A stretch of DNA of 64,000 nucleotides from Klebsiella oxytoca. Lineage in GTDB: Bacteria > Pseudomonadota > Gammaproteobacteria > Enterobacterales > Enterobacteriaceae. Location: assembly GCF_009707385.1 (NCBI RefSeq), contig NZ_CP046115.1, positions 2,790,001-2,854,000 on the forward strand, read 5' to 3'. Each line of letters starts with the position of its first letter. Positions within the stretch are counted from its first letter, which is position 1. Made by a program: the position numbers and the translations under genes. Shown piece by piece: positions 7,773-40,277 of this stretch. Under the pieces are notes generated by a model, which made no database searches, was not told the DNA's origin, and was given only the letters and a program-made list of their open reading frames with translations.

Positions 7773-7826
7773 ATGCAACACGTAATCATGATGACTCTGC
7801 ACGGCTGGTGGCGCACTTCCCGATAA
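7773..7826 (+). CDS. trpL: trp leader peptide
   Basis: A 17-residue ORF, MQHVIMMTLHGWWRTSR, with an AAGG Shine-Dalgarno. The tandem Trp codons at residues 12-13 followed by RTS match the enteric TrpL signature GWWRTS. Ribosome stalling at these codons when charged tRNA-Trp is scarce would let the antiterminator form. It is slightly longer than the 14-residue E. coli peptide and has a different N-terminus. Confidence 0.93.
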   Translation: MQHVIMMTLHGWWRTSR

Positions 7827-7893
7827 CGGGCAGTATCGTCACGTCTGCAGTTTGCATACCGATACCCGGCCCGCCAATGAGCGGGCTTTTTTT
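7827..7893 (+). promoter_or_regulatory. trp attenuator (antiterminator and terminator)
   Basis: The layout of enteric trp leaders is preserved. The 2:3 antiterminator pairs GTATCG (7833-7838) with CGATAC (7860-7865), extended by CGGG/CCCG. The 3:4 terminator pairs GCCCGC (7869-7874) with GCGGGC (7881-7886) and is followed by seven T residues. The segment from the Trp codons to the T-run is very close to the E. coli trp leader, which points to common ancestry with the main trp operon leader. Confidence 0.92.
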
Positions 7894-7985
7894 CGTCCAG
7901 ATTTTACCTAAACAGTAAACCCGGGCGTAAAAAGCAGTCAGGAACGGCTGCGCAGTACCTGATTTCATTTCACGTGCAGAGTCCT

Positions 7986-30919: not shown

Positions 30920-31594
30920 CTATTTGACGTGGATATATTTACCTTCGTGCCAGATGCCAATTCGCGTCTGTTTATTTGTAACCTGCGTCTGCTTTATTTT
31001 TGCGCTAAGCCCGGGCATCACATAATAACGTTCGCGGCAGCCCTCGCCTTTATCTTTTGCAGGGTCCTGACACGGGCCATATGAAATAACCCTGAAGGTC
31101 ACGTTGCCGGTATTTGTCACCGTATCGCCGCTATGCTGGTAATTAAATTTCGCTTTGCGGGGAGCCACCACCAGAATGGTATTTATTTGCGCCGACGTGG
31201 TCGCCAGACCGTGGCGTGAATTACTGCTGACCTGATGATCGCTCACCGGCTCATCGAGCCAGGACAGGCGGTAATAGCGCTCCTTATCATCCTGCGGACC
31301 ATGATAAATAAAACGAAAATGTTCTCTGGCCCCGGCAGGTAAAATCATATTGGCCGGCGTAGAGAGCAGCTCTCCGTTCTGCTCCATCGGGATAATTTTT
31401 CCGCCCGACATTGGCGTAGAGATTCGATGCGCGCTCACGCTGACGAAGCGTGCCGTATCGCTGGCGTTATCGATCTCTTTGGCCAGCATTTGATCGTTGG
31501 CAAACATTATTGAGGTGACTTCCCCGACGCCAATGCCCGCCGCGCTACCGCTGATAAACAGCGTCAGAAATAAAAAGATATGTGATTTTTTCAT
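30920..31594 (-). CDS. ECP-like fimbrial chaperone (EcpB-like)
   Basis: 224 residues. A signal peptide (about 1-20) is followed by a two-domain Ig-like chaperone with GAREHFRFIYHGPQDDKERYYRLSW, the alternate-chaperone F1 strand pattern, and a second domain starting near FNYQHSGDTVTNTGN. It would cap the major subunit before assembly. It lies 60 bp after the subunit gene, behind a hairpin. No Shine-Dalgarno is seen within 12 bases of the start; the nearest GGAGG is inside the hairpin stem. Confidence 0.8.
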   Translation of the reverse strand: MKKSHIFLFLTLFISGSAAGIGVGEVTSIMFANDQMLAKEIDNASDTARFVSVSAHRISTPMSGGKIIPMEQNGELLSTPANMILPAGAREHFRFIYHGPQDDKERYYRLSWLDEPVSDHQVSSNSRHGLATTSAQINTILVVAPRKAKFNYQHSGDTVTNTGNVTFRVISYGPCQDPAKDKGEGCRERYYVMPGLSAKIKQTQVTNKQTRIGIWHEGKYIHVK

Positions 31595-31603
31595 TATTAA
31601 AAT

Positions 31604-31625
31604 AAAGGAGGGCTACCCCTCCTTT
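31604..31625 (-). terminator. Hairpin between major subunit and chaperone genes
   Basis: On the minus strand AAAGGAGGG pairs with CCCTCCTTT (9 bp, 4-base loop) and is followed by ATTTTAATA. It lies directly after ecpA-like. It can act as a leaky terminator or 3' stabiliser, giving more major subunit than chaperone and usher. It also traps the only GGAGG upstream of the chaperone start. Confidence 0.6.
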
Positions 31626-31654
31626 TTGCAGGTCAGAATTTGGCTATGGGGAAA

Positions 31655-32233
31655 TTACAGGGTCCACTCGGCGGTGAACTGAACTTTCACGTCACCGCTC
31701 CAGTAACCGTCGGCTAAAGAAGCAAAAGTCGCCGGTGCGGTACCGTCAGAAGTTGCGGAGTCTACGCTAAACAGGAACGCGCTCTGGGTGCTGGTGCGGT
31801 TAACGTGATCATCAAAACCAGCGGCCAGGTTTTCCAGGCCAGCGCTAATATTGCTGCCGATATTAATCATGGTTACCGGCGCGGTCTTAGACAGCTTCTC
31901 ACCGTTCCATGCCACACCGATTTCCAGCGTCGAACCATCCGCCGCGCGGTTCAGCGTGCTGGTAACCAGCTGGGAGGTTAAGACGAAGTCAGTCGCATTT
32001 TCCTGGCCCTGAATAGTGATATCAAACGCACCATCCTGAGTATTAAACGCTTTCAGGCCTTGAGCATATTCAAAAGACACAGAACGCAGCGGCGTAACAA
32101 CCAGCAGACTGGTGGTATCTTTTGTTGCAGAGGCATCCCAGCTTGCCGTGGCTGATGCCGTAACGTCAGCGGCCATCGCGCCGGAGCAAAAAAGAATAGA
32201 AGAAGCGCATGCTGCCAAAAGAGACTTTTTCAT
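31655..32233 (-). CDS. ECP-like major fimbrial subunit (EcpA-like)
   Basis: 192 residues. The signal peptide ends CSGAMA (about 21), and the mature protein starts ADVTASATASWDASATKDTT, the ECP/Mat pilin pattern. Internal KAFNTQDGAFDITIQG and a C-terminal DGYWSGDVKVQFTAEWTL also match the EcpA family, whose end forms the last strand. It is clearly diverged from E. coli EcpA, so I read it as a separate ECP-type locus. AAGGATATATA precedes the start. No ecpR (matA) regulator lies upstream. Confidence 0.85.
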   Translation of the reverse strand: MKKSLLAACASSILFCSGAMAADVTASATASWDASATKDTTSLLVVTPLRSVSFEYAQGLKAFNTQDGAFDITIQGQENATDFVLTSQLVTSTLNRAADGSTLEIGVAWNGEKLSKTAPVTMINIGSNISAGLENLAAGFDDHVNRTSTQSAFLFSVDSATSDGTAPATFASLADGYWSGDVKVQFTAEWTL

Positions 32234-32489
32234 TATATATCCTTAATAAAAATTTCCAGATGTATTGCTTTGGCGTTGCCGCCACAGAGATATTCTGCCG
32301 AAGAGCAGAATAATATTAATTACGGGTTACCAGAAAGACTTTACAGCCCTAAAAAACAGCCTGGCTAAATGTATATTCAAATATGAATACGGCGCAGTAT
32401 AAGTTTACGAATATCTGCTGTCTATTACCTGTAACTTTAAGAAAAATCGCCCTCACCATCAGTGATGAAAATAGAAAAACCTGATAAAG

Positions 32490-32498
32490 CCCCCCCCC
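32490..32498. repeat. Homopolymeric tract of nine C
   Basis: Nine consecutive C residues lie about 257 bp upstream of the major pilin start, in the long non-coding stretch (32234-33035) between the fimbrial and aldolase operons. Such tracts can change length by slipped-strand mispairing. Its distance from the pilin promoter is uncertain. The rest of the left part of this intergenic region is AT-rich with no supported gene. Confidence 0.5.
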
Positions 32499-32789
32499 TT
32501 GCCATCGCCGCCATTAGGAATTTTCTCAACCAACATTTCGATTAATTCAATTTCGTGGGATAAAAGCCTGCGGCACCGGCGAGATAAAGCGTGCAGCGAT
32601 GAATCAGAAGATGATTTTGGTAGAAAAAAACACAGGAAAAACCGAATGGTAAAACAGGTTAACATTTCCCATGGGAAATATTTAGCTTGAATATTTTTCT
32701 GCATGCAGGACAATCACAAATGTTCATCGATTGGTACTGAGTCCGTTCAAAATTAAAAAATTCCATTAAGATTAAACTCAGATTAAATT

Positions 32790-32851
32790 TGTGATGAGAA
32801 TCGCAATTTATCAATAACGGCTGGACAGAAAGAACCATGGCATGCTAGTAA
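32790..32851 (+). promoter_or_regulatory. CRP-like site and promoter of the aldolase/GlpP operon
   Basis: TGTGATGAGAATCGCA (32790-32805) matches the CRP consensus TGTGA-N6-TCACA with one mismatch. TGGACA (32822-32827) and TAGTAA (32846-32851), 18 bp apart, form a plausible -35/-10. Starting near 32859 would put the CRP centre at about -61.5, the class I position. Inferred by eye. Confidence 0.45.
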
Positions 32852-32922
32852 TTTATTCAAGCAAGGGAACGGATTTAAATGAAACGAATTTAAACCCCTT
32901 TCCGACAGGCTGAAAAATTGAA

Positions 32923-33018
32923 TTGATAATGGTTTGGATTGCTGAACGATTATCAAAAGGGTAAGTGAATCGAAGGCCCTCAGAGACGAAAGTCTCTGAG
33001 GGCCTTTTTGTTTTTTCT
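32923..33018 (+). promoter_or_regulatory. Leader RNA with upstream hairpin and very strong intrinsic terminator
   Basis: TTGATAAT/ATTATCAA (32923-32930, 32949-32956) forms a first hairpin. AAGGCCCTCAGAGAC (32973-32987), a GAAA tetraloop and the exact complement (32992-33006) form a 15-bp terminator stem followed by a TTTGTTTTTT tract. It ends 18 bp before the aldolase start codon, with the SD (CAGGAG) in between. The next-but-one gene encodes a GlpP-family antiterminator, so this is the probable target of its control. Alternatively it ends an upstream small RNA. Confidence 0.75.
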
Positions 33019-33035
33019 ATCTCAGGAGTAAAAAA

Positions 33036-33827
33036 ATGTCTAAAGAACGTCGTCTCTCACGCATTTTCGCAAAAGATGGTAAATCAGTCACTCTGGCGCT
33101 GGATGGCTACTATTTTTCAAACAAAACAAATGGTATTGATAATACGATAAACCAGCTCCCGGCGCTGGTCGAAAGTGGCCTGGACTGTGCGCTGGTGACT
33201 TATGGGATGTTGAAAAATTTCCGCGAAGTTTTCAATAGCGTTCCCGTGGTATTACGCGTCGATAGCACAGTGAGTATTTTTGATAATACCGTTCCCGATA
33301 CCACCCCGGTTTTTTCCATCGAAGATGCGCTGAAAGTGGCTGCCGATGGCGTTGTGTGCATGACCTTTCCCGGCGCGTTCAACGAAGAGAAAACGCATAT
33401 CATGGCCATGCAGCTGGCGCAGGCGGCCGATCGCTGGAACGTACCGCTGATCGTTGAATCCCTGCCATACGGCTATCCCGTCACCAGCGACGATTCTAAT
33501 AACCCGGCTATCATCGCCGCCTCCGCCCGCATCGCCGTTGAGCTCGGCGCCGACGTCATCAAAACCCGCTTTACCGGCACCGATGATGACAGACTTATCG
33601 TCGAAGCGGCCGGCGTACCGGTACTGGCGCTGGGCGGGCCCAAAACCGGTATTGACGGCTATTTTAAATTTGTGCAGCACTGCATGCAGATGGGTGCTAA
33701 AGGCGTGGCGGTGGGCCGCAATATCACGCAGGACCCACAGCCAGCAAAAGTGGTAGCAGGTCTGAATGCCATCATCCATGAAAACGCCACCGCGGAAGAT
33801 GCCTACAGCCTCTACATGGCTAAATAA
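33036..33827 (+). CDS. Class I aldolase (DeoC/LacD/FbaB-LsrF family)
   Basis: 263 residues, a TIM barrel. Core signs are LALDGYYFSNKTNGIDN near 20-36, GVVCMTFPGAFNEEK near 105-120, the Schiff-base lysine in GADVIKTRFTGTDDD near 181, and ALGGPKTG followed by GVAVGRNI for phosphate binding. The family cleaves phosphorylated ketoses or acts as thiolase (LsrF). It is first in a six-gene operon and is likely the C-C cleaving step yielding a triose phosphate. An AGGAGTAAAAAA SD follows the leader terminator. Substrate unknown. Confidence 0.85.
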   Translation: MSKERRLSRIFAKDGKSVTLALDGYYFSNKTNGIDNTINQLPALVESGLDCALVTYGMLKNFREVFNSVPVVLRVDSTVSIFDNTVPDTTPVFSIEDALKVAADGVVCMTFPGAFNEEKTHIMAMQLAQAADRWNVPLIVESLPYGYPVTSDDSNNPAIIAASARIAVELGADVIKTRFTGTDDDRLIVEAAGVPVLALGGPKTGIDGYFKFVQHCMQMGAKGVAVGRNITQDPQPAKVVAGLNAIIHENATAEDAYSLYMAK

Positions 33828-33841
33828 CAACGGATATACAT

Positions 33842-34393
33842 ATGCTCTTAAATAACACCATCATTCCTTCAGTCAGAAAATATAAACATTTTGAACAGGC
33901 GCTGGCCTGCGCATCTGAATACGTACTGTTATCCGAAGCGAATATCGGTAATTTGCAGTCGCTGATTGGCAAATGTCATCAAAGCGGCAAAAAAGTCCTT
34001 ATTCATCTGGAGTTACTGGGTGGTTTTAAACCCGACCAGGCGGGGATCGGTCTGCTAAAAAATTACTACAAGGTTGATGGTGTTATTTCGTCCAATCTCT
34101 CGGCCCTACGCTCTGCCAAAAAAGAGGGATTGTTAACTATCTTTCGGGTATTGCTGATCGACTCGCGTTCGCTGGATCAGTCCATCGATATTGTTAAGCA
34201 TAACCCGCCGGATGCAATTGAAATCTTACCTGCTGAATATGCCTGCCAGTGTCTGGAATTGATTAGCCGGAATTTAAAAGGCTTTGACGTGATATTCATC
34301 GCCGGAGGCTTTGTTAAGCGGAAATACCTTGTAGATAAAATATTCCATGCCGGATTTAAAGGGATCACCACCAGCGAACCCGGTTTATGGTAA
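33842..34393 (+). CDS. GlpP-family antiterminator
   Basis: 183 residues. It matches the glycerol-3-phosphate-responsive antiterminator family: a PSVRKYKHFEQAL opening, SGKKVLIHLELLGGFKPDQAG near 50-70, VDGVISSNLSALRSAKKEGL, RVLLIDSRSLDQSI, PDAIEILPAE and the ending IAGGFVKRK...GITTSEPGLW. These form a glycerophosphodiesterase-like barrel that binds the ligand phosphate. In Bacillus subtilis GlpP lets glpD leader mRNA escape its terminator. Here the gene lies inside an operon that starts with such a terminator, which suggests local feedback. The family is rare in enterics. Confidence 0.85.
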   Translation: MLLNNTIIPSVRKYKHFEQALACASEYVLLSEANIGNLQSLIGKCHQSGKKVLIHLELLGGFKPDQAGIGLLKNYYKVDGVISSNLSALRSAKKEGLLTIFRVLLIDSRSLDQSIDIVKHNPPDAIEILPAEYACQCLELISRNLKGFDVIFIAGGFVKRKYLVDKIFHAGFKGITTSEPGLW

Positions 34394-34413
34394 CTCATAA
34401 GGAGTTCACGCGA

Positions 34414-35952
34414 ATGAAAGAACAATATGTCATGGGCATCGATAATGGCGGAACCGTAACCAAAGCGGCGATTTACGATCGTGCCGGCAGCGTAGTGGCC
34501 ATCGCGTCGAAGTCAACGCAAATGCTGACGCCAAAAGAATTTCATACCGAGCGTGATATCAACGAGCTCTGGGCGGCCAACGTCGAAGTGATTAAAACGG
34601 CTATTGCGCAGTCGGGGATTGACGCCAGTCAGATCAAAGGCGTGGCGGTGACCGGCCACGGTAACGGACTGTATATGGTTGATGAAGCCGGTACCCCGGT
34701 ACGCAACGGAATTATTTCTACCGATAGCCGGGCGAAAGCGTACGTTGAAAAGTGGTACAACGACCCGACCTTTAGTCGCGACATTTTACCCAAAACCATG
34801 CAGTCCATCTGGGCCGGCCAGCCCGTTGCCCTCCTCGCCTGGCTGCAAGATAACGAGCCTGAAGCGCTGGACAAAGCGCGCTACATTTTTATGGTCAAAG
34901 ATCTGATTCGTTTTTATCTGACCGGCGAAGCCTTCCTTGAGCTGACCGATATCTCAGGAACCAACCTGATCAACGTGCGCGACCGCGACTATGATTCATC
35001 GCTGCTGGCCTGGTGGGGACTTGGCGATCTGCGCGACAAGCTCCCGCCGATTAAACTCTCCACCGATTGCTGCGGCTACATTACCGACGAAGTCGCGCAG
35101 CTGACCGGGTTATGTGCCGGAACGCCGGTCTCCGGCGGCGTCTTTGATATTTCGGCATCATCGGTGGCTTCGGGGATCAATACGCTAAATAAGCTGGCCA
35201 TCATTACCGGCACCTGGAGTATCAACGAATACGTGACCGACCATCCGGTTATCGACCGGGATTTGTTTATGACTTCCATCTATCCCATTGAGGGTAAATG
35301 GCTAATCACCGAGGCCAGCCCCACTTCCGCCAGCAATCTGGAGTGGTTTATCAATAACTTTATGGAGGGCGATCGCGCGGCCGCCTCGGCGCAGGGAGCG
35401 TCGGTTTACGATCTGTGCAATGAGCTGGTGTCCACCACGACGCCGGCAGAAAGCCACCTGCTGTTCTTCCCGTTTGTGTTTGGCTCCAACACTATTCCCG
35501 ACGCCTCTGCGGGCTTTATCGGTCTGAACAGTTTCCATAAAAAAGCGCATTTTCTGCGCGCTATCTATGAAGGCGTCGCCTTCAGCCATCTTTATCACAC
35601 CGAACGCTTGCGCCATATCAACCCCGAGCTAAGCCGCACCATACGTATTGCGGGAGGGGTCACCAACTCTCCGGTCTGGCTACAGGTATTTGCCGATATT
35701 TTCCAGTCCACTCTGGAGATTGTCGACGTCAAAGAGCACGGCACGCTGGGCACCGCGATGACGGCGGCAGTAATGGCTGGCTGGTTTGATGACGTCTTCG
35801 CCGCCTCCAATGAGATGGTTCACGTATCGCGAACCGTCATACCGAACCCGGACAACAACAAGGTCTATCAGGATAAGTATCAGCTCTACAAAAACCTGTT
35901 ATCGGAAATGCAGTCTCCGTGGAAAAGCTGCAGTAACTACATCACGCATTAA
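34414..35952 (+). CDS. FGGY-family carbohydrate kinase
   Basis: 512 residues from ATG 34414 with AAGGAG 9 bases upstream; a start 27 bp earlier overlaps the GlpP-like gene. The N-terminal MGIDNGGTVTKAAIYD is the phosphate-1 motif, followed by GVAVTGHGNGLYMVDEAG and a C-terminal IAGGVTNSPVWLQVFADIF adenosine motif. Xylulokinase-like. It phosphorylates a ketose or polyol; L-xylulose-type kinases are the nearest look-alikes. It gives the operon a cytoplasmic kinase even though it also has a PTS component. Confidence 0.88.
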   Translation: MKEQYVMGIDNGGTVTKAAIYDRAGSVVAIASKSTQMLTPKEFHTERDINELWAANVEVIKTAIAQSGIDASQIKGVAVTGHGNGLYMVDEAGTPVRNGIISTDSRAKAYVEKWYNDPTFSRDILPKTMQSIWAGQPVALLAWLQDNEPEALDKARYIFMVKDLIRFYLTGEAFLELTDISGTNLINVRDRDYDSSLLAWWGLGDLRDKLPPIKLSTDCCGYITDEVAQLTGLCAGTPVSGGVFDISASSVASGINTLNKLAIITGTWSINEYVTDHPVIDRDLFMTSIYPIEGKWLITEASPTSASNLEWFINNFMEGDRAAASAQGASVYDLCNELVSTTTPAESHLLFFPFVFGSNTIPDASAGFIGLNSFHKKAHFLRAIYEGVAFSHLYHTERLRHINPELSRTIRIAGGVTNSPVWLQVFADIFQSTLEIVDVKEHGTLGTAMTAAVMAGWFDDVFAASNEMVHVSRTVIPNPDNNKVYQDKYQLYKNLLSEMQSPWKSCSNYITH

Positions 35953-35963
35953 GTGAGGAAAGT

Positions 35964-36725
35964 ATGGATCTGAATTTACATCACCGCACAGCTATCGTAA
36001 CCGGCGGCGCAACCGGGCTGGGCAAAGAGTTTGTCCTTTCTCTGGCCAAAGAAGGAGTCAACATCTGCTTCACGTATATGCGTGATGAAGAGCATCCAGA
36101 GCGGCTAATCGACGCGGTGAAAAGTAGCGCCAACGTCGAAATAGTGGCGGTGAAAGCCGATCTTTCCGACGAGCAAAGCCGGGAGAATCTGTTCACGACC
36201 TGTATCGACCGCCTGGGGAACGCCGATATTCTGGTCAATAACGCCGGGATCTGGCTGAGCGGCTACGTCACTGAAATCACCCAGCAGGACTGGGATAAAG
36301 TGATGAACGTCAATCTGAAAGCGGTCTTCCACCTGTGCCAGCTGTTCGTTAACCACTGTCTGGCGAAAGAGCAGCCCGGCAGCATTCTGAATATAACTTC
36401 TCAGGCAGCCTTCCACGGCTCGACAACCGGTCATGCCCACTATGCGGCCAGTAAAGCGGGTCTGGTCGCCTTCTCTATCTCGCTGGCGCGTGAGGTAGCA
36501 AAACAGAAAATCAATGTTAACAACATCGCCGTCGGCATTATGGACACCGCGATGATCCGTAAAAACATTGAACAAAATCCTGACTATTACGTCAGCCGAA
36601 TTCCGGTTGGCCGGGTGGCCCAGCCGCACGAAATTGCCGACATCGGAGTCTTCATGGTCTCTCCTAAAACCAGCTATATGACGGGAGCGACTCTGGATGT
36701 CACCGGCGGTATGTTGATGCGTTAA
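35964..36725 (+). CDS. SDR-family oxidoreductase
   Basis: 253 residues, classical short-chain dehydrogenase. TGGATGLGKE at 13-22 binds the cofactor and NNAGIWLSG is near 90. The catalytic Ser is in NITSQAAFHGS, and Tyr/Lys are in HYAASKAG near 156-160. The end is MTGATLDVTGGMLMR. It likely interconverts a polyol and ketose, or a keto acid, of the operon's pathway. TGAGGAAAG gives the SD. There is an 11-bp gap from the kinase gene. Confidence 0.9.
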   Translation: MDLNLHHRTAIVTGGATGLGKEFVLSLAKEGVNICFTYMRDEEHPERLIDAVKSSANVEIVAVKADLSDEQSRENLFTTCIDRLGNADILVNNAGIWLSGYVTEITQQDWDKVMNVNLKAVFHLCQLFVNHCLAKEQPGSILNITSQAAFHGSTTGHAHYAASKAGLVAFSISLAREVAKQKINVNNIAVGIMDTAMIRKNIEQNPDYYVSRIPVGRVAQPHEIADIGVFMVSPKTSYMTGATLDVTGGMLMR

Positions 36726-36741
36726 TTGATGGAGAATCATT

Positions 36742-37737
36742 ATGAAATGTCTGGCGATTGCCGATCTTTTTATCAACCCAGCGATGATGGACGCAGGTCT
36801 GAAGGCGCTGAAAGATAAAGGTATTGAAGTTGAGGTGCGCGAGTGGGCGCACGAATCGATTGAAAAGCTGCAGGAGGATAATTTACTGGTCGAGCAACAA
36901 GGTTCTGAAGCGGTGGCATTACCTGACGCCCTGCTTCAGGACGCGGAAGACGTTGAGATCCTGATTACCCAGTTTGCGCCCGTTAACGCCGCGGTATTTG
37001 AAAAACTGCCCGCTCTCAAGTACGTCGGGGTGCTGCGCGGCGGAATTGAAAACGTTAACCAGGCACAGGCAAAGGCACGCGGGGTGGAAGTCATCAATAC
37101 CCCTGGACGCAACGCCCGCAGCGTGGCGGAGTTTACCGTCGGAATGATCCTCGCAGAAATGCGTAACATCGCCCGCTCGCACGATGCGCTGCGCGATAAG
37201 CTCTGGCGCAAAGACAGCCCTAACCACCAGGCCATACCCGAATTGGGCGGTAAAGTTGTAGGACTGGTTGGGCTGGGGCATATCGCCCAGCTGGTAGCAG
37301 GTTTTCTGCGCGGTTTTGGCAGCGACATTATCTTTTACGATAAATACGTCTCCGGTCATGAGTGCTATGAAAAAGTGGATTCGCTGGATGAACTGGTTCG
37401 CCGTGCGGATGTGGTCTCTCTTCATGCCCGTATGACCCCGGAAACCGAAAATCTGATCAACGCCCATCATTTCGAGCTAATGAAGGAAAGCGCCATTATT
37501 GTTAACACGGCACGCTCCGGGCTCATTAACGAAAGCGATCTGATCGCCGCGCTGCGGGCGGGGAAAATCATGGGCGCCGCCCTCGACACCTTTGATGATG
37601 AACCGCTACCGGACGACAGCCCGTTTTATTCGTTGAACAACGTCACGATTACGCCGCATATTGCCGGAAGTACTATTGACGCGTTCAGTAATTCACCAAA
37701 ACTTTTTTCTGAGATCTTACTGAAGAAACTCGGTTAA
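36742..37737 (+). CDS. D-isomer-specific 2-hydroxyacid dehydrogenase
   Basis: 331 residues. The NAD-binding GLVGLGHIAQ is near 173-182. The catalytic Arg is in VSLHARMTPETENLI, and the Glu/His pair lies near ALDTFDDEPLP and TPHIAGSTIDA. An N-terminal catalytic domain contains LKYVGVLRGGIENVN. It is of the phosphoglycerate/glyoxylate-reductase class. In this operon it may reduce a 2-keto acid or act on an aldonic-type intermediate. GGAGAATCATT precedes the start. Confidence 0.88.
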   Translation: MKCLAIADLFINPAMMDAGLKALKDKGIEVEVREWAHESIEKLQEDNLLVEQQGSEAVALPDALLQDAEDVEILITQFAPVNAAVFEKLPALKYVGVLRGGIENVNQAQAKARGVEVINTPGRNARSVAEFTVGMILAEMRNIARSHDALRDKLWRKDSPNHQAIPELGGKVVGLVGLGHIAQLVAGFLRGFGSDIIFYDKYVSGHECYEKVDSLDELVRRADVVSLHARMTPETENLINAHHFELMKESAIIVNTARSGLINESDLIAALRAGKIMGAALDTFDDEPLPDDSPFYSLNNVTITPHIAGSTIDAFSNSPKLFSEILLKKLG

Positions 37738-37773
37738 ATATTAAAAGAAACAGTTAAGGTTTTTTATACGGCC

Positions 37774-37803
37774 AATTGGGCGCGGGTTCGCTCGCGCCCA
37801 ATT
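37774..37803 (+). other. Hairpin between dehydrogenase and PTS IIC genes
   Basis: AATTGGGCGCG and CGCGCCCAATT form an 11-bp stem with an 8-base loop in the 90-bp gap before the transporter gene. There is no T-run. It probably shields the upstream message or lowers read-through into the membrane-protein gene. Confidence 0.55.
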
Positions 37804-37827
37804 CAGCCGCCCGTTAAAGGAAATATT

Positions 37828-39090
37828 ATGGATATTATCAACAGCATTATTAGTCTGGGGGCATCAGTGATGATGCCAGTAATATTCTTTATTATCGCAC
37901 TTTGCTTTGGGGTAAAAATTGGCACCGCCTTTAAAGCCGGAATGCTGGTAGGAATTGGCTTTGAAGGGGTTGGCCTGGTTATTGGTCTGTTGTTAACCAA
38001 TCTCGGTCCTGCTTCACAGGCAATGGTCGAGCGTATTGGCCTGCATCTGACGGTTGTGGATACAGGCTGGCCAACGGCCTCCACGATAGGCTGGGGCTCG
38101 CCGTTGATGCTGCCGGTAGTGGTAGGTTTTATCGTTATCAATATCGCCATGCTGCTGTTCAAATTAACCAAAACGGTGAATATTGATATATTTAACTACT
38201 GGATATTTCTGATTATGGGTTCGGTGGTGTATGCCGGAACCGGTAATTACTGGCTCTCCGTCGGCATTACCTTCGGTATATTCATTTTAACCCTGCTGGC
38301 GGCAGATTTAACCGCACCGTATTTGCAAAAAAACTATAATCTCAAGGGAATTTCATTTCCCCATCTTACCTGTATAACCTACGTACCGTTTGGCATTGCC
38401 TGTAACTATATTATTGATAAGATTCCGCTGATCAATAAAATTAATTTCGACCCGGAGAGTATTAATAAAAAATTCGGCGTTTTTGGCGAACCGCTGACTC
38501 TGGGCTTCGTACTGGGGCTGCTGCTGGCTTTCCTGGCCGGGTACGATGTTTCGGCTGCGGTATCGCTGGCAATTAAGGTTTCCGCCGCCATGCTGCTGCT
38601 GCCGAAAATGATCGAAATTTTAGTCCAGGGCTTACTGATTGTTCGTGATGCTGCCGAAGCGAAGCTGAAGGAAAAATTCCCCAATCGCGATTTCTATATC
38701 GGGATGGATACCGCGCTGCTTATTGGCGAACCTTCGGTACTGGCGACCGGACTGCTGCTGATCCCCATGGCGGTAGTGCTGGCGATCGTTCTGCCCGGCA
38801 ACCGCGTGCTGCCGTTTGTCGATCTGGCTTCGCTAATGTTTCTGTTAGCGATGGTCACGCCGTTCTGTAAACGCAATATGTTCCGCATGTTTGTTACCGG
38901 CACGCTGGTGGTCACCTGCATTTTGTATGTCGGGACGGATATCTCGCAAGAGTACACTCAGGCGGCAGTTAACTCTAATATCCCGGTACCGGAAGGGATG
39001 TCGGAAATCACCAATATCGTCGGCGGAGCGACCACTCCGGTTGGCTGGCTGGCGGTGAAATTCGGCGAGTTTTTTAGTACGGCGCCTTAA
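37828..39090 (+). CDS. PTS galactitol-family IIC component
   Basis: 420 residues, with about nine to twelve membrane helices. Sequence blocks such as MLVGIGFEGVGLVIGLL, DTGWPTASTIGWGSPLMLPVVVG and GEPLTLGFVLGLLLAFLAGYD are typical of EIIC-GAT (GatC) proteins. No IIA or IIB gene is present in the operon or elsewhere in the window, while an FGGY kinase is. So it may work with IIA/IIB encoded elsewhere or as a non-phosphorylating permease. AAAGGAAATATT gives the SD. Confidence 0.85.
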   Translation: MDIINSIISLGASVMMPVIFFIIALCFGVKIGTAFKAGMLVGIGFEGVGLVIGLLLTNLGPASQAMVERIGLHLTVVDTGWPTASTIGWGSPLMLPVVVGFIVINIAMLLFKLTKTVNIDIFNYWIFLIMGSVVYAGTGNYWLSVGITFGIFILTLLAADLTAPYLQKNYNLKGISFPHLTCITYVPFGIACNYIIDKIPLINKINFDPESINKKFGVFGEPLTLGFVLGLLLAFLAGYDVSAAVSLAIKVSAAMLLLPKMIEILVQGLLIVRDAAEAKLKEKFPNRDFYIGMDTALLIGEPSVLATGLLLIPMAVVLAIVLPGNRVLPFVDLASLMFLLAMVTPFCKRNMFRMFVTGTLVVTCILYVGTDISQEYTQAAVNSNIPVPEGMSEITNIVGGATTPVGWLAVKFGEFFSTAP

Positions 39091-39143
39091 TTCCCCGGTG
39101 CGGGTAGAAGTATCGGGCTTTTTGCCCTGCCCCAGAAATAAAA

Positions 39144-39174
39144 ATGCCTGCCAGGAGGGTTATCTGGCAGGCAT
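39144..39174. terminator. Terminator between PTS IIC and porin genes
   Basis: ATGCCTGCCAG and CTGGCAGGCAT form an 11-bp stem with a 9-base loop between convergent genes. The A-run to the left (AAATAAAAATG) gives a U-run for the minus-strand porin transcript. Confidence 0.8.
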
Positions 39175-39194
39175 CGTACTATGAAACGCGTTAC

Positions 39195-40277
39195 TTAGAA
39201 CTGATAGGTCATGCCCACGGCAACGATGTTGTCGGTGCTGATACCAACAGCTTTGGTGAACGTATTGTCATCCAGCATGTTGATTTTATAGTCTACGTAG
39301 GTAGACATGTTTTTATTGAAGTAGTAAGTCGCGCCTACATCAACGTATTCAACCAGATCCTGGTCGCCGTAGCGGCCCAGATCTTTGCCTTTTGATTTCA
39401 GGTAGGCGATGGACGGACGCAGGCCGAAATCGAACTGATACTGGGCAACCACTTCAAAGTTTTGCGTAGTATTGGCGGTATTGTCTTTGCCGAACTTGGT
39501 CATATTGTGGGTTTCAGCATAGGTGGTCGCCAGGTAGATGTTGTTGGCGTCGTACTTCAGGCCGGCTGCCCACAGTTCTGCTTTTTCGCCACGAGCCTGG
39601 AGATCCGGATTAGCACGACCAGCATTAACCTGAGTATTCGTACGATCGGAAGCCGCATAGGCCGCGCCTACGCTGAATCCTTCGTACTCATAGGAAGAGG
39701 ACATGCCCCAGCCATCGCCGTGCTGTTTAGCCAGGTCGCGCTTGCCTTCTTCCTTACCCTGGTACTGTACGGCAAAGTTCAGACCGTCAACCAGGCCGAA
39801 GAAGCCATTGTTACGGTAGGTAGCCACGCCGGTGGTACGAGCGGTTGCGAAGACGTCAGTCTGCGTCCAGGTGTCACCACCGAACTCAGGCAGCATATCG
39901 GTCCAGCCGCCGATGTCATAAGCAACGCCATAGTTACGACCATAGTCCAGAGAACCATACTCGCCAAACTTCAGGCCGGCGAACGCGAGACGCGTTTTGT
40001 CTCCGGAATTGTCGCCTTCAACGTTATTGGCGCTGAAGTTATATTCCCACTGGCCGTAACCGGTCAGCTGATCGGTGATTTGTGTTTCACCTTTAAAGCC
40101 CAGACGTGCATAGGTCTGGTCGCCATCTTCGCCATCATCGTTGGAGAAATAATGCAGGCCGGTCACTTTCCCATAGAGGTCGAGTTTGTTTCCGTCCTTG
40201 TTATACACCTCAGCTGCCTGCACGGTTCCTGCAGCAAGAAGTGTAGAGACGGCCACTGTTAGTAATTTTAATTTCAT
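39195..40277 (-). CDS. General outer-membrane porin, OmpC/OmpN/PhoE type
   Basis: 360 residues, full length. The signal peptide is [21 protein letters not shown], and the mature protein begins [17 protein letters not shown]. The loop 3 PEFGGDT motif, 16 strand-like segments and the C-terminal VAVGMTYQF with its final Phe, needed for barrel assembly, are all present. It forms trimeric diffusion channels for small solutes. The exact orthologue among enteric porins cannot be settled by eye. The long AT-rich upstream region suggests complex control. Confidence 0.92.

Follow-up and report, generated by a model that had tools for sequence, protein, structure and literature searches.

In Bacillus subtilis, GlpP acting with glycerol-3-phosphate lets RNA polymerase past a terminator located between the promoter and the first gene, according to excerpts of PMC9604022, and excerpts of PMC3997798 place GlpP itself on a yhxA-glpP transcript. 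As a class of mechanism, antitermination by GlpP is already known (excerpts of PMC9604022 and PMC7430163). The annotation of E. coli ygcP already names it a glycerol-3-phosphate responsive antiterminator, and an enteric GlpP is thus not new in itself; of 5426 complete E. coli genomes, 5068 match the ygcP region. We found no regulatory test of YgcP in the open-licence literature, where excerpts of two papers include the gene in a resistance-screen list that also names ygcU (PMC8228696) and in an ethanol expression table (PMC1599756).

The window, by which we mean the whole 64,000-nucleotide stretch of Klebsiella oxytoca DNA analysed here, contains six genes running in the same direction at 33036-39090; these and all further features of this operon lie on the forward strand. 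They encode a DeoC/LacD-family aldolase (33036-33827; PF01791, with the DhnA-type and LsrF models matched only below their cut-offs), a GlpP-family antiterminator protein (33842-34393), an FGGY-family carbohydrate kinase (34417-35952), a short-chain dehydrogenase (SDR; 35964-36725), a D-isomer 2-hydroxyacid dehydrogenase (36742-37737), and a galactitol-type PTS EIIC permease (37828-39090), the last four recognized by profile matches. None of the six matched as a glycerol gene. The initial annotation had called the second gene a GlpP-family protein, and this assignment is sound: its product scores 154.8 bits against Pfam PF04309, well above the cut-off of 27, and matches the solved GlpP-type chains 3kts and 1vkf. 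No second PF04309 match at E ≤ 0.001 occurs in the 5.39-Mb host genome, and the window GlpP is 28% identical to E. coli YgcP.

The locus resembles the B. subtilis glpD, glpFK, and glpT leaders in pairing a PF04309 protein with a terminator between the promoter and the first gene. It differs in that the B. subtilis targets are glycerol genes and GlpP is carried on a separate transcript, as far as excerpts of that literature describe, whereas here GlpP lies inside the operon that it presumably controls. Antiterminators of the BglG/LicT type combine a CAT RNA-binding domain with PRD domains. No BglG/LicT-type domain was found in the window GlpP, in which PF04309 is the sole domain at E ≤ 0.001. 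The likeness to BglG and LicT, the latter also covered by a literature excerpt, is one of outline only, with a protein holding a hairpin that competes with a terminator; the protein families are unrelated, the RNA elements are different, and the window GlpP is without PRD domains.

Three other features of the window deserve mention. The galactitol-type EIIC stands beside the FGGY kinase gene in an operon without EIIA or EIIB, and it may import a free sugar instead of phosphorylating it. Between the hydroxyacid dehydrogenase and EIIC genes, at 37774-37803, lies a strong hairpin of 11 bp (AATTGGGCGCG...CGCGCCCAATT) that lacks a T-run and may determine how much enzyme mRNA is made relative to permease mRNA. 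Elsewhere, at 7800-7894, lies a tryptophan operon leader (Rfam RF00513, 74 bits).

Upstream of the aldolase gene, we recognized a CRP-like site (TGTGATGAGAATCGCA, 32790-32805) and a promoter (32822-32851) composed of a -35 element, TGGACA (32822-32827), an 18-nt spacer, and an extended -10 element, TGcTAGTAA (32843-32851), in which TAGTAA (32846-32851) is preceded by TG. A simple promoter scan does not list this pair, which was read by eye and is conserved. The transcription start predicted from it lies near 32858, relative to which the CRP-like site is centered at about -61. A center about 61 bases upstream of the start is a usual position for activation by CRP. The predicted untranslated leader (32858-33035) would be about 178 nt long, and the region 32810-33040 folds better than 200 of 200 dinucleotide shuffles (z = -6.4). 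A CRP-like site, a promoter, and a leader of 150-180 nt had all been proposed before, and all three are borne out here.

Within the leader, hairpin 2 (TTGATAAT...ATTATCAA, 32923-32956; -12.7 kcal/mol, z = -5.4) is conserved, with 91.7% of cells paired and three pairs changed on both sides among the aligned leaders. A possible hairpin 1 (32865-32903; 74.1% of cells paired) was rejected as a defined element because a one-column slide pairs better (78.6%). The leader ends in an intrinsic terminator (32972-33016), identified by scan, alignment, and fold, with a 16-pair stem and GAAA loop at 32972-33007 followed by TTGTTTTTT, the T-run extending to 33016. Its fold (-31.6 kcal/mol, z = -8.45) is accompanied by one pair changed on both sides, from A-U to G-C in four sequences. 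We rejected a chance match, since this is the strongest terminator-like site in 31500-39500 (the runner-up has 9 pairs) and is conserved. The end of the T-run lies 19 nt before the aldolase ATG (33036). The initial annotation gave a 15-bp stem and a T-run ending 18 bp before the gene; 13 of the 16 pairs form a strong core, so that its count was fair.

The promoter, leader, and terminator are kept in 19 of 19 aligned loci, a set that includes the window and ranges from Klebsiella and E. coli SE11 to Erwinia. All share the CRP site, promoter, hairpin 2, AGGGT, GCCCTCAGAGA, and terminator. Ten of the loci come from named genomes of Klebsiella, Citrobacter, Enterobacter, Entomohabitans, and Erwinia. 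These 19 loci represent 17 distinct sequences. L014, L015, and L016, whose upstream regions are identical to those of L025, L027, and L029, were left out of the alignment. TGnTAGT and GTGA-N6-TCnCA are present in 17 of 17, and the -35 element reads GGACA or AGACA in all except L020, which has GGACG (16 of 17). In an unconstrained column-by-column comparison of 16 distinct leaders (L060 left out), AGGGT, TGA, and GCCCTCAGAGA are invariant in every one; by contrast, of 98 fourfold-degenerate sites in the aldolase gene, only 7 show no change across these 16 loci. The initial annotation had counted against its own reading any orthologous operons that keep GlpP and lack a leader terminator; because promoter, leader, and terminator persist in all 19 loci, no such case appears in this set. 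Leader, terminator, and antiterminator also occur in three further genomes, of which two, judged by eye, repeat known leaders and one (L107, with a GlpP 86% identical) is new.

The gene order of the window is annotated likewise in E. coli SE11 and in a Klebsiella pneumoniae record. Among complete E. coli genomes, only 3 of 5426 match the leader-aldolase-GlpP stretch by megablast. The SE11 operon (L013 8422-16399) lies between a VOC-family gene adjoining mdtM and topAI-yjhQ-yjhP, and these gene surroundings together with its rarity suggest horizontal gain.

The invariant residues define a candidate antiterminator, which we call type A. The hairpin AGGGU-(13 nt, GUGA...GAA)-GCCCU overlaps the terminator such that its 3' strand also serves in the terminator 5' arm. 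Its 5' strand AGGGU (32958-32962) is invariant in 16 of 16 leaders, and the GGGGU of L107 can still pair; in the loop AAGUGAAUCGAAG (32963-32975), the proposed GlpP contact, UGA and a single G do not vary among type A leaders; and the 3' strand is GCCCU (32976-32980). The AGGGU-GCCCU and terminator pairings are mutually exclusive, which fits how antiterminators work. The hairpin is weak (-4.9 kcal/mol, z = -0.96, compared with -31.6 kcal/mol for the terminator). A 5-bp stem arises at this place in 345-387 of 1000 shuffles of three type A leaders (387 for the window), and the stem on its own thus proves nothing. Stem and loop motif arise together in 18 of 1000 shuffles of the window and in 0-19 of 1000 across 13 single leaders, a count that is a rough guide only because three of the 13 (SE11, Listeria glpD, and Listeria glpF) do not fit the loop expression used. 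No covariation was found within the type A antiterminator, whose five pairs never vary among 16 leaders, so that support for it comes from other families.

A promoter, a very strong terminator, and a conserved hairpin between them also resemble a small-RNA gene. The two could instead delimit a separate RNA of about 155 nt, with the operon transcribed by read-through or from another promoter and GlpP acting elsewhere. We consider this improbable, given that the terminator stands directly before the first gene in 19 of 19 loci, even where the flanking genes are different (L013 and L060), that the conserved residues are those of an antiterminator whose layout is common to glp leaders, and that the leader yields no Rfam match at gathering score. 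A stable by-product RNA would be compatible with the sequence, as would the separate small RNA that the initial annotation had counted against its own reading.

Related elements appear in other leaders linked to GlpP. In E. coli, the ygcW leader carries AGUUACC-AGAGAUAAUGAGAAA-GGUAACU, with GGUAACU inside a 19-pair terminator stem, and the yqcE leader carries AUUACU-AGAGACCUGAGAAA-AGUAAU. A Streptomyces locus has AGUUACU-AGAGACCAGAGAAC-AGUAACU about 300 bases upstream of an SDR gene, an Enterococcus MFS gene has GUUACU-GGAGACCAGAGAGA-AGUAAC in its leader, and in Cytobacillus the glpF leader reads UGUGA-AAGAGAUUAAGAGAC-UCACG and the glpD leader GGUU-AGAGACCACGAGA-GACC, the last found by eye where automatic scans missed it. 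The stems differ across these leaders, whereas the GA-rich loop runs are kept and each 3' strand doubles as part of a terminator. In the enteric ygcW leaders of L045 and L049, the 3' strand is GGUGACU, which pairs via U-G in the antiterminator and via G-U in the terminator. A third GlpP subgroup, type C, found in G593 and G662, has ACAGAU-UUUAGAUAAGAGACU-AUCUGU overlapping a terminator; it was spotted by eye after the scan had missed it. As DNA, the type C leader reads ACAGAT-TTTAGATAAGAGACT-ATCTGT in L164 (2029-2100), L167, and L051 (around 1610, with one loop base different). The L164 operon behind it encodes an MFS transporter, an FGGY kinase, an unclassified gene product, a FAD oxidoreductase, and GlpP.

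Compared with the glp leader elements, type A has the same position, the same overlap, and a GA-rich loop, yet its stem is short and its loop GUGA...GAA (UUGA in L017 and L019) departs from their GA repeat. The L107 element, GGGGU-CAGUGAAGAGAAA-GCCCU, in which G-U keeps one pair, is intermediate, and its loop lies midway between type A and the E. coli type. MAFFT shifted the stems when type A was aligned together with the other antiterminators, and this alignment was rejected. A design resembling the overlapping antiterminator of the window recurs in the glp leaders compared here, those of Cytobacillus, Listeria, and Acetoanaerobium.

Our scans were designed after the type A, ygc, Streptomyces, Enterococcus, and Cytobacillus leaders had been seen, so only later finds are independent: the scan that picked up the elements of Listeria glpD, Listeria glpF, and Acetoanaerobium glpF had been set up before these three leaders were seen. 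The same motif was not found by scan at Fusobacterium glpF, Enterococcus glpF and glpD, or a second Listeria glpF, and the Paenibacillus glpD leader, placed by eye in a register other than that of the scan, is not counted as support. A descriptor scan of both strands of 32 loci (428,221 bases) gave 22 matches, compared with 2 in a reversed-sequence control. Twenty of the 22 lie in GlpP-linked leaders and amount to 19 places, as the matches in L063 and L072 are one place. The descriptor missed several leaders counted as positive (type A in L017 and L019, Cytobacillus glpD, Paenibacillus glpD, the L043 yqcE leader, and type C in L051).

The divergent ygcW and yqcE leaders (L053 16060-16379) each combine a GA-loop antiterminator with an overlapping, promoter-proximal terminator, as in the window. 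Excerpts of a genomic-SELEX study list RpoD promoters towards both genes in their shared gap (PMC3946193). The E. coli ygcN-ygcE region is also similar in placing a GlpP-family protein near SDR and FGGY-kinase genes. It is different in that the ygcP gene follows ygcN-ygcO, away from the proposed targets of its product, and in that the motif stem has 6-7 bp. From this arrangement, ygcW and yqcE are likely targets of YgcP. We found no description of ygcW leader termination in the open-licence literature; PMC4448311, in the excerpt available, lists ygcW as a downstream operon, but the regions concerned lie kilobases off, and we rejected it as a report of this leader.

These leaders bear on whether GlpP could chiefly stabilize or process the mRNA through hairpin 2 or the leader, with termination constitutive and partial. 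B. subtilis GlpP reportedly stabilizes glpD mRNA, as the title of a 1996 paper by Glatz states, and an excerpt of a review says that it does so in addition to antitermination; hairpin 2 is conserved with some covariation. The element common to GlpP-linked leaders is, however, the terminator-overlapping hairpin and not hairpin 2, and the conserved stretch of the ygcW leader starts at the antiterminator. We hold such a role to be slightly less probable still than a separate small RNA.

The length of the leader and its strong terminator would also fit a riboswitch or ribosome-mediated attenuation, with GlpP as a passenger, and a short frame such as MVWIAERLSKG covers hairpin 2 in several leaders. 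That ATG frame is not among the frames of at least five codons in E. coli SE11 (L013), L031, or L021, begins with GTG in L019, and has no clear ribosome site; because it is not kept in those three leaders, ribosome-mediated attenuation was rejected. No Rfam riboswitch reaches its gathering score in the leader. Its eight Rfam matches up to E = 1 are all weak, the best of them being to NrrF on the other strand (E = 0.011, 23.6 bits compared with the required 60); a known riboswitch or small RNA was rejected, and no Rfam 15 family covers the antiterminator element at gathering score in the window and seven loci. The motif, moreover, accompanies GlpP in Bacillota, a Streptomyces, and Enterobacteriaceae. 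Control of the terminator by such a different signal is the least probable of the three alternatives and appears very unlikely.

The initial annotation had proposed searching Enterobacterales for GlpP homologues and asking whether each goes with a leader terminator and this gene set; GlpP and a leader element coincide in most cases. Of 343 Enterobacteriaceae genomes, 33 carry the ygc-type motif. These 33 fall within the 46 that are GlpP-positive (a match to the window GlpP at E ≤ 1e-10, a threshold that more distant forms may escape), and 0 of the 297 without GlpP have the motif; the reversed pattern gave one match. In 30 of the 33, the locus was examined, and every pattern match overlaps a terminator in the ygcW-yqcE gap. 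The remaining 13 GlpP-positive genomes include two with type A only (G000 and G430) and six with AGUUACU-CGAGA...AAGAGAAA-AGUAACU or a similar variant (G465, G482, G520, G558, G566, and G614). In all, 43 of the 46 have an element, two of these by eye. Scans found no antiterminator in G544 or G625 and no element in G471; L158 and L166 were covered by scan only. In G544 (L161 14940-15110), a 131-bp ygcW-yqcE gap retains a terminator only, with no antiterminator half, and a YgcP-type gene is present; this gap looks like a deletion.

Within the genus, the 10 of 20 genomes that have type A GlpP are also the 10 with the type A motif, and the 7 with YgcP-type GlpP are those that carry the B motif, twice per genome; G401 and G403 carry a third GlpP type only. 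Across the order, PF04309 exceeds its cut-off in 6 of 394 genomes (11 matched, with the five having only sub-cut-off matches not counted). The ygc-type pattern occurs in exactly the five PF04309 genomes other than G000. The type A pattern is present in G000, and two further matches to it, with two mismatches each, fall in genomes that lack GlpP. Because motif and GlpP gene are near neighbors, this co-occurrence partly reflects co-inheritance.

Overall, we think it likely that the operon is controlled by antitermination through its own ligand-bound GlpP, in positive feedback. Antitermination by the operon's own GlpP, as first proposed in the initial annotation, is the best-supported explanation, with an invariant overlapping antiterminator and the same layout at glpF and glpD and at ygcW and yqcE. 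Its basis is the conservation of the cis elements, the overlap of antiterminator and terminator, the architecture shared by GlpP-linked leaders, and the genome co-occurrence; GlpP binding, ligand dependence, ligand identity, and feedback are what we infer from these. RNA polymerase would start at the CRP-aided promoter and stop by default at the terminator (32972-33007). As the leader emerges, hairpin 2 would fold first, after which AGGGU (32958-32962) could pair with GCCCU (32976-32980). GlpP carrying a phosphorylated metabolite would bind the GA-rich loop and hold the weak antiterminator, so that the lower part of the terminator could not close beside the U-run and polymerase would read on. 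Since GlpP is encoded by the operon's second gene, read-through would yield more GlpP, giving a positive-feedback switch.

The effector is probably a phosphorylated compound, either made directly by the operon's FGGY kinase or following closely from its product. GlpP has an FGGY kinase as a near neighbor in type A and type C, in the E. coli ygc region, and in Streptomyces and Cytobacillus. Glycerol kinase is itself a member of the FGGY family, and its product is glycerol-3-phosphate. As B. subtilis GlpP binds that product, it would be simplest if each GlpP sensed what its own kinase makes, or a compound close to it. Type A GlpP has HLEL where its relatives mostly have HxDL, while the C-terminal GG and TTS segments, which lie near the presumed phosphate site, are kept. 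This combination hints at a ligand that still carries a phosphate but differs in its sugar moiety, and the type A ligand may thus differ from glycerol-3-phosphate.

We lean, by a little, towards a more general reading in which GlpP proteins are modular metabolite-sensing, RNA-binding antiterminators whose role extends beyond glycerol regulation, each subgroup matched to its own GA-loop element and FGGY-kinase product. Enterobacteriaceae would then contain three or more subgroups, namely type A, which is self-encoded, type C, encoded at the end of its operon, and YgcP, which would act in trans on ygcW and yqcE. Set beside the mechanism class known from B. subtilis, what appears new from sequence comparison is the overlapping hairpin, the motif common to these leaders, the proposed E. 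coli targets, and an enteric form that encodes its own GlpP. In the open-licence literature we did not find the latter three, nor, among the papers listed, a GlpP RNA motif from comparative genomics or RegPrecise; part of the Gram-positive element may already be described in B. subtilis papers (Holmberg, Glatz).

The analysis describes a specific RNA element found repeatedly, in Bacillota, in a Streptomyces, and in Enterobacteriaceae, and a probable self-contained switch that unites regulator and target in one operon amid different gene surroundings in different genera. It also supplies likely targets for E. coli YgcP, a regulator without a known role, whose function thus becomes directly testable in a laboratory strain. 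Because related switches appear to precede little-studied E. coli genes, a poorly known type of gene control is opened to testing.
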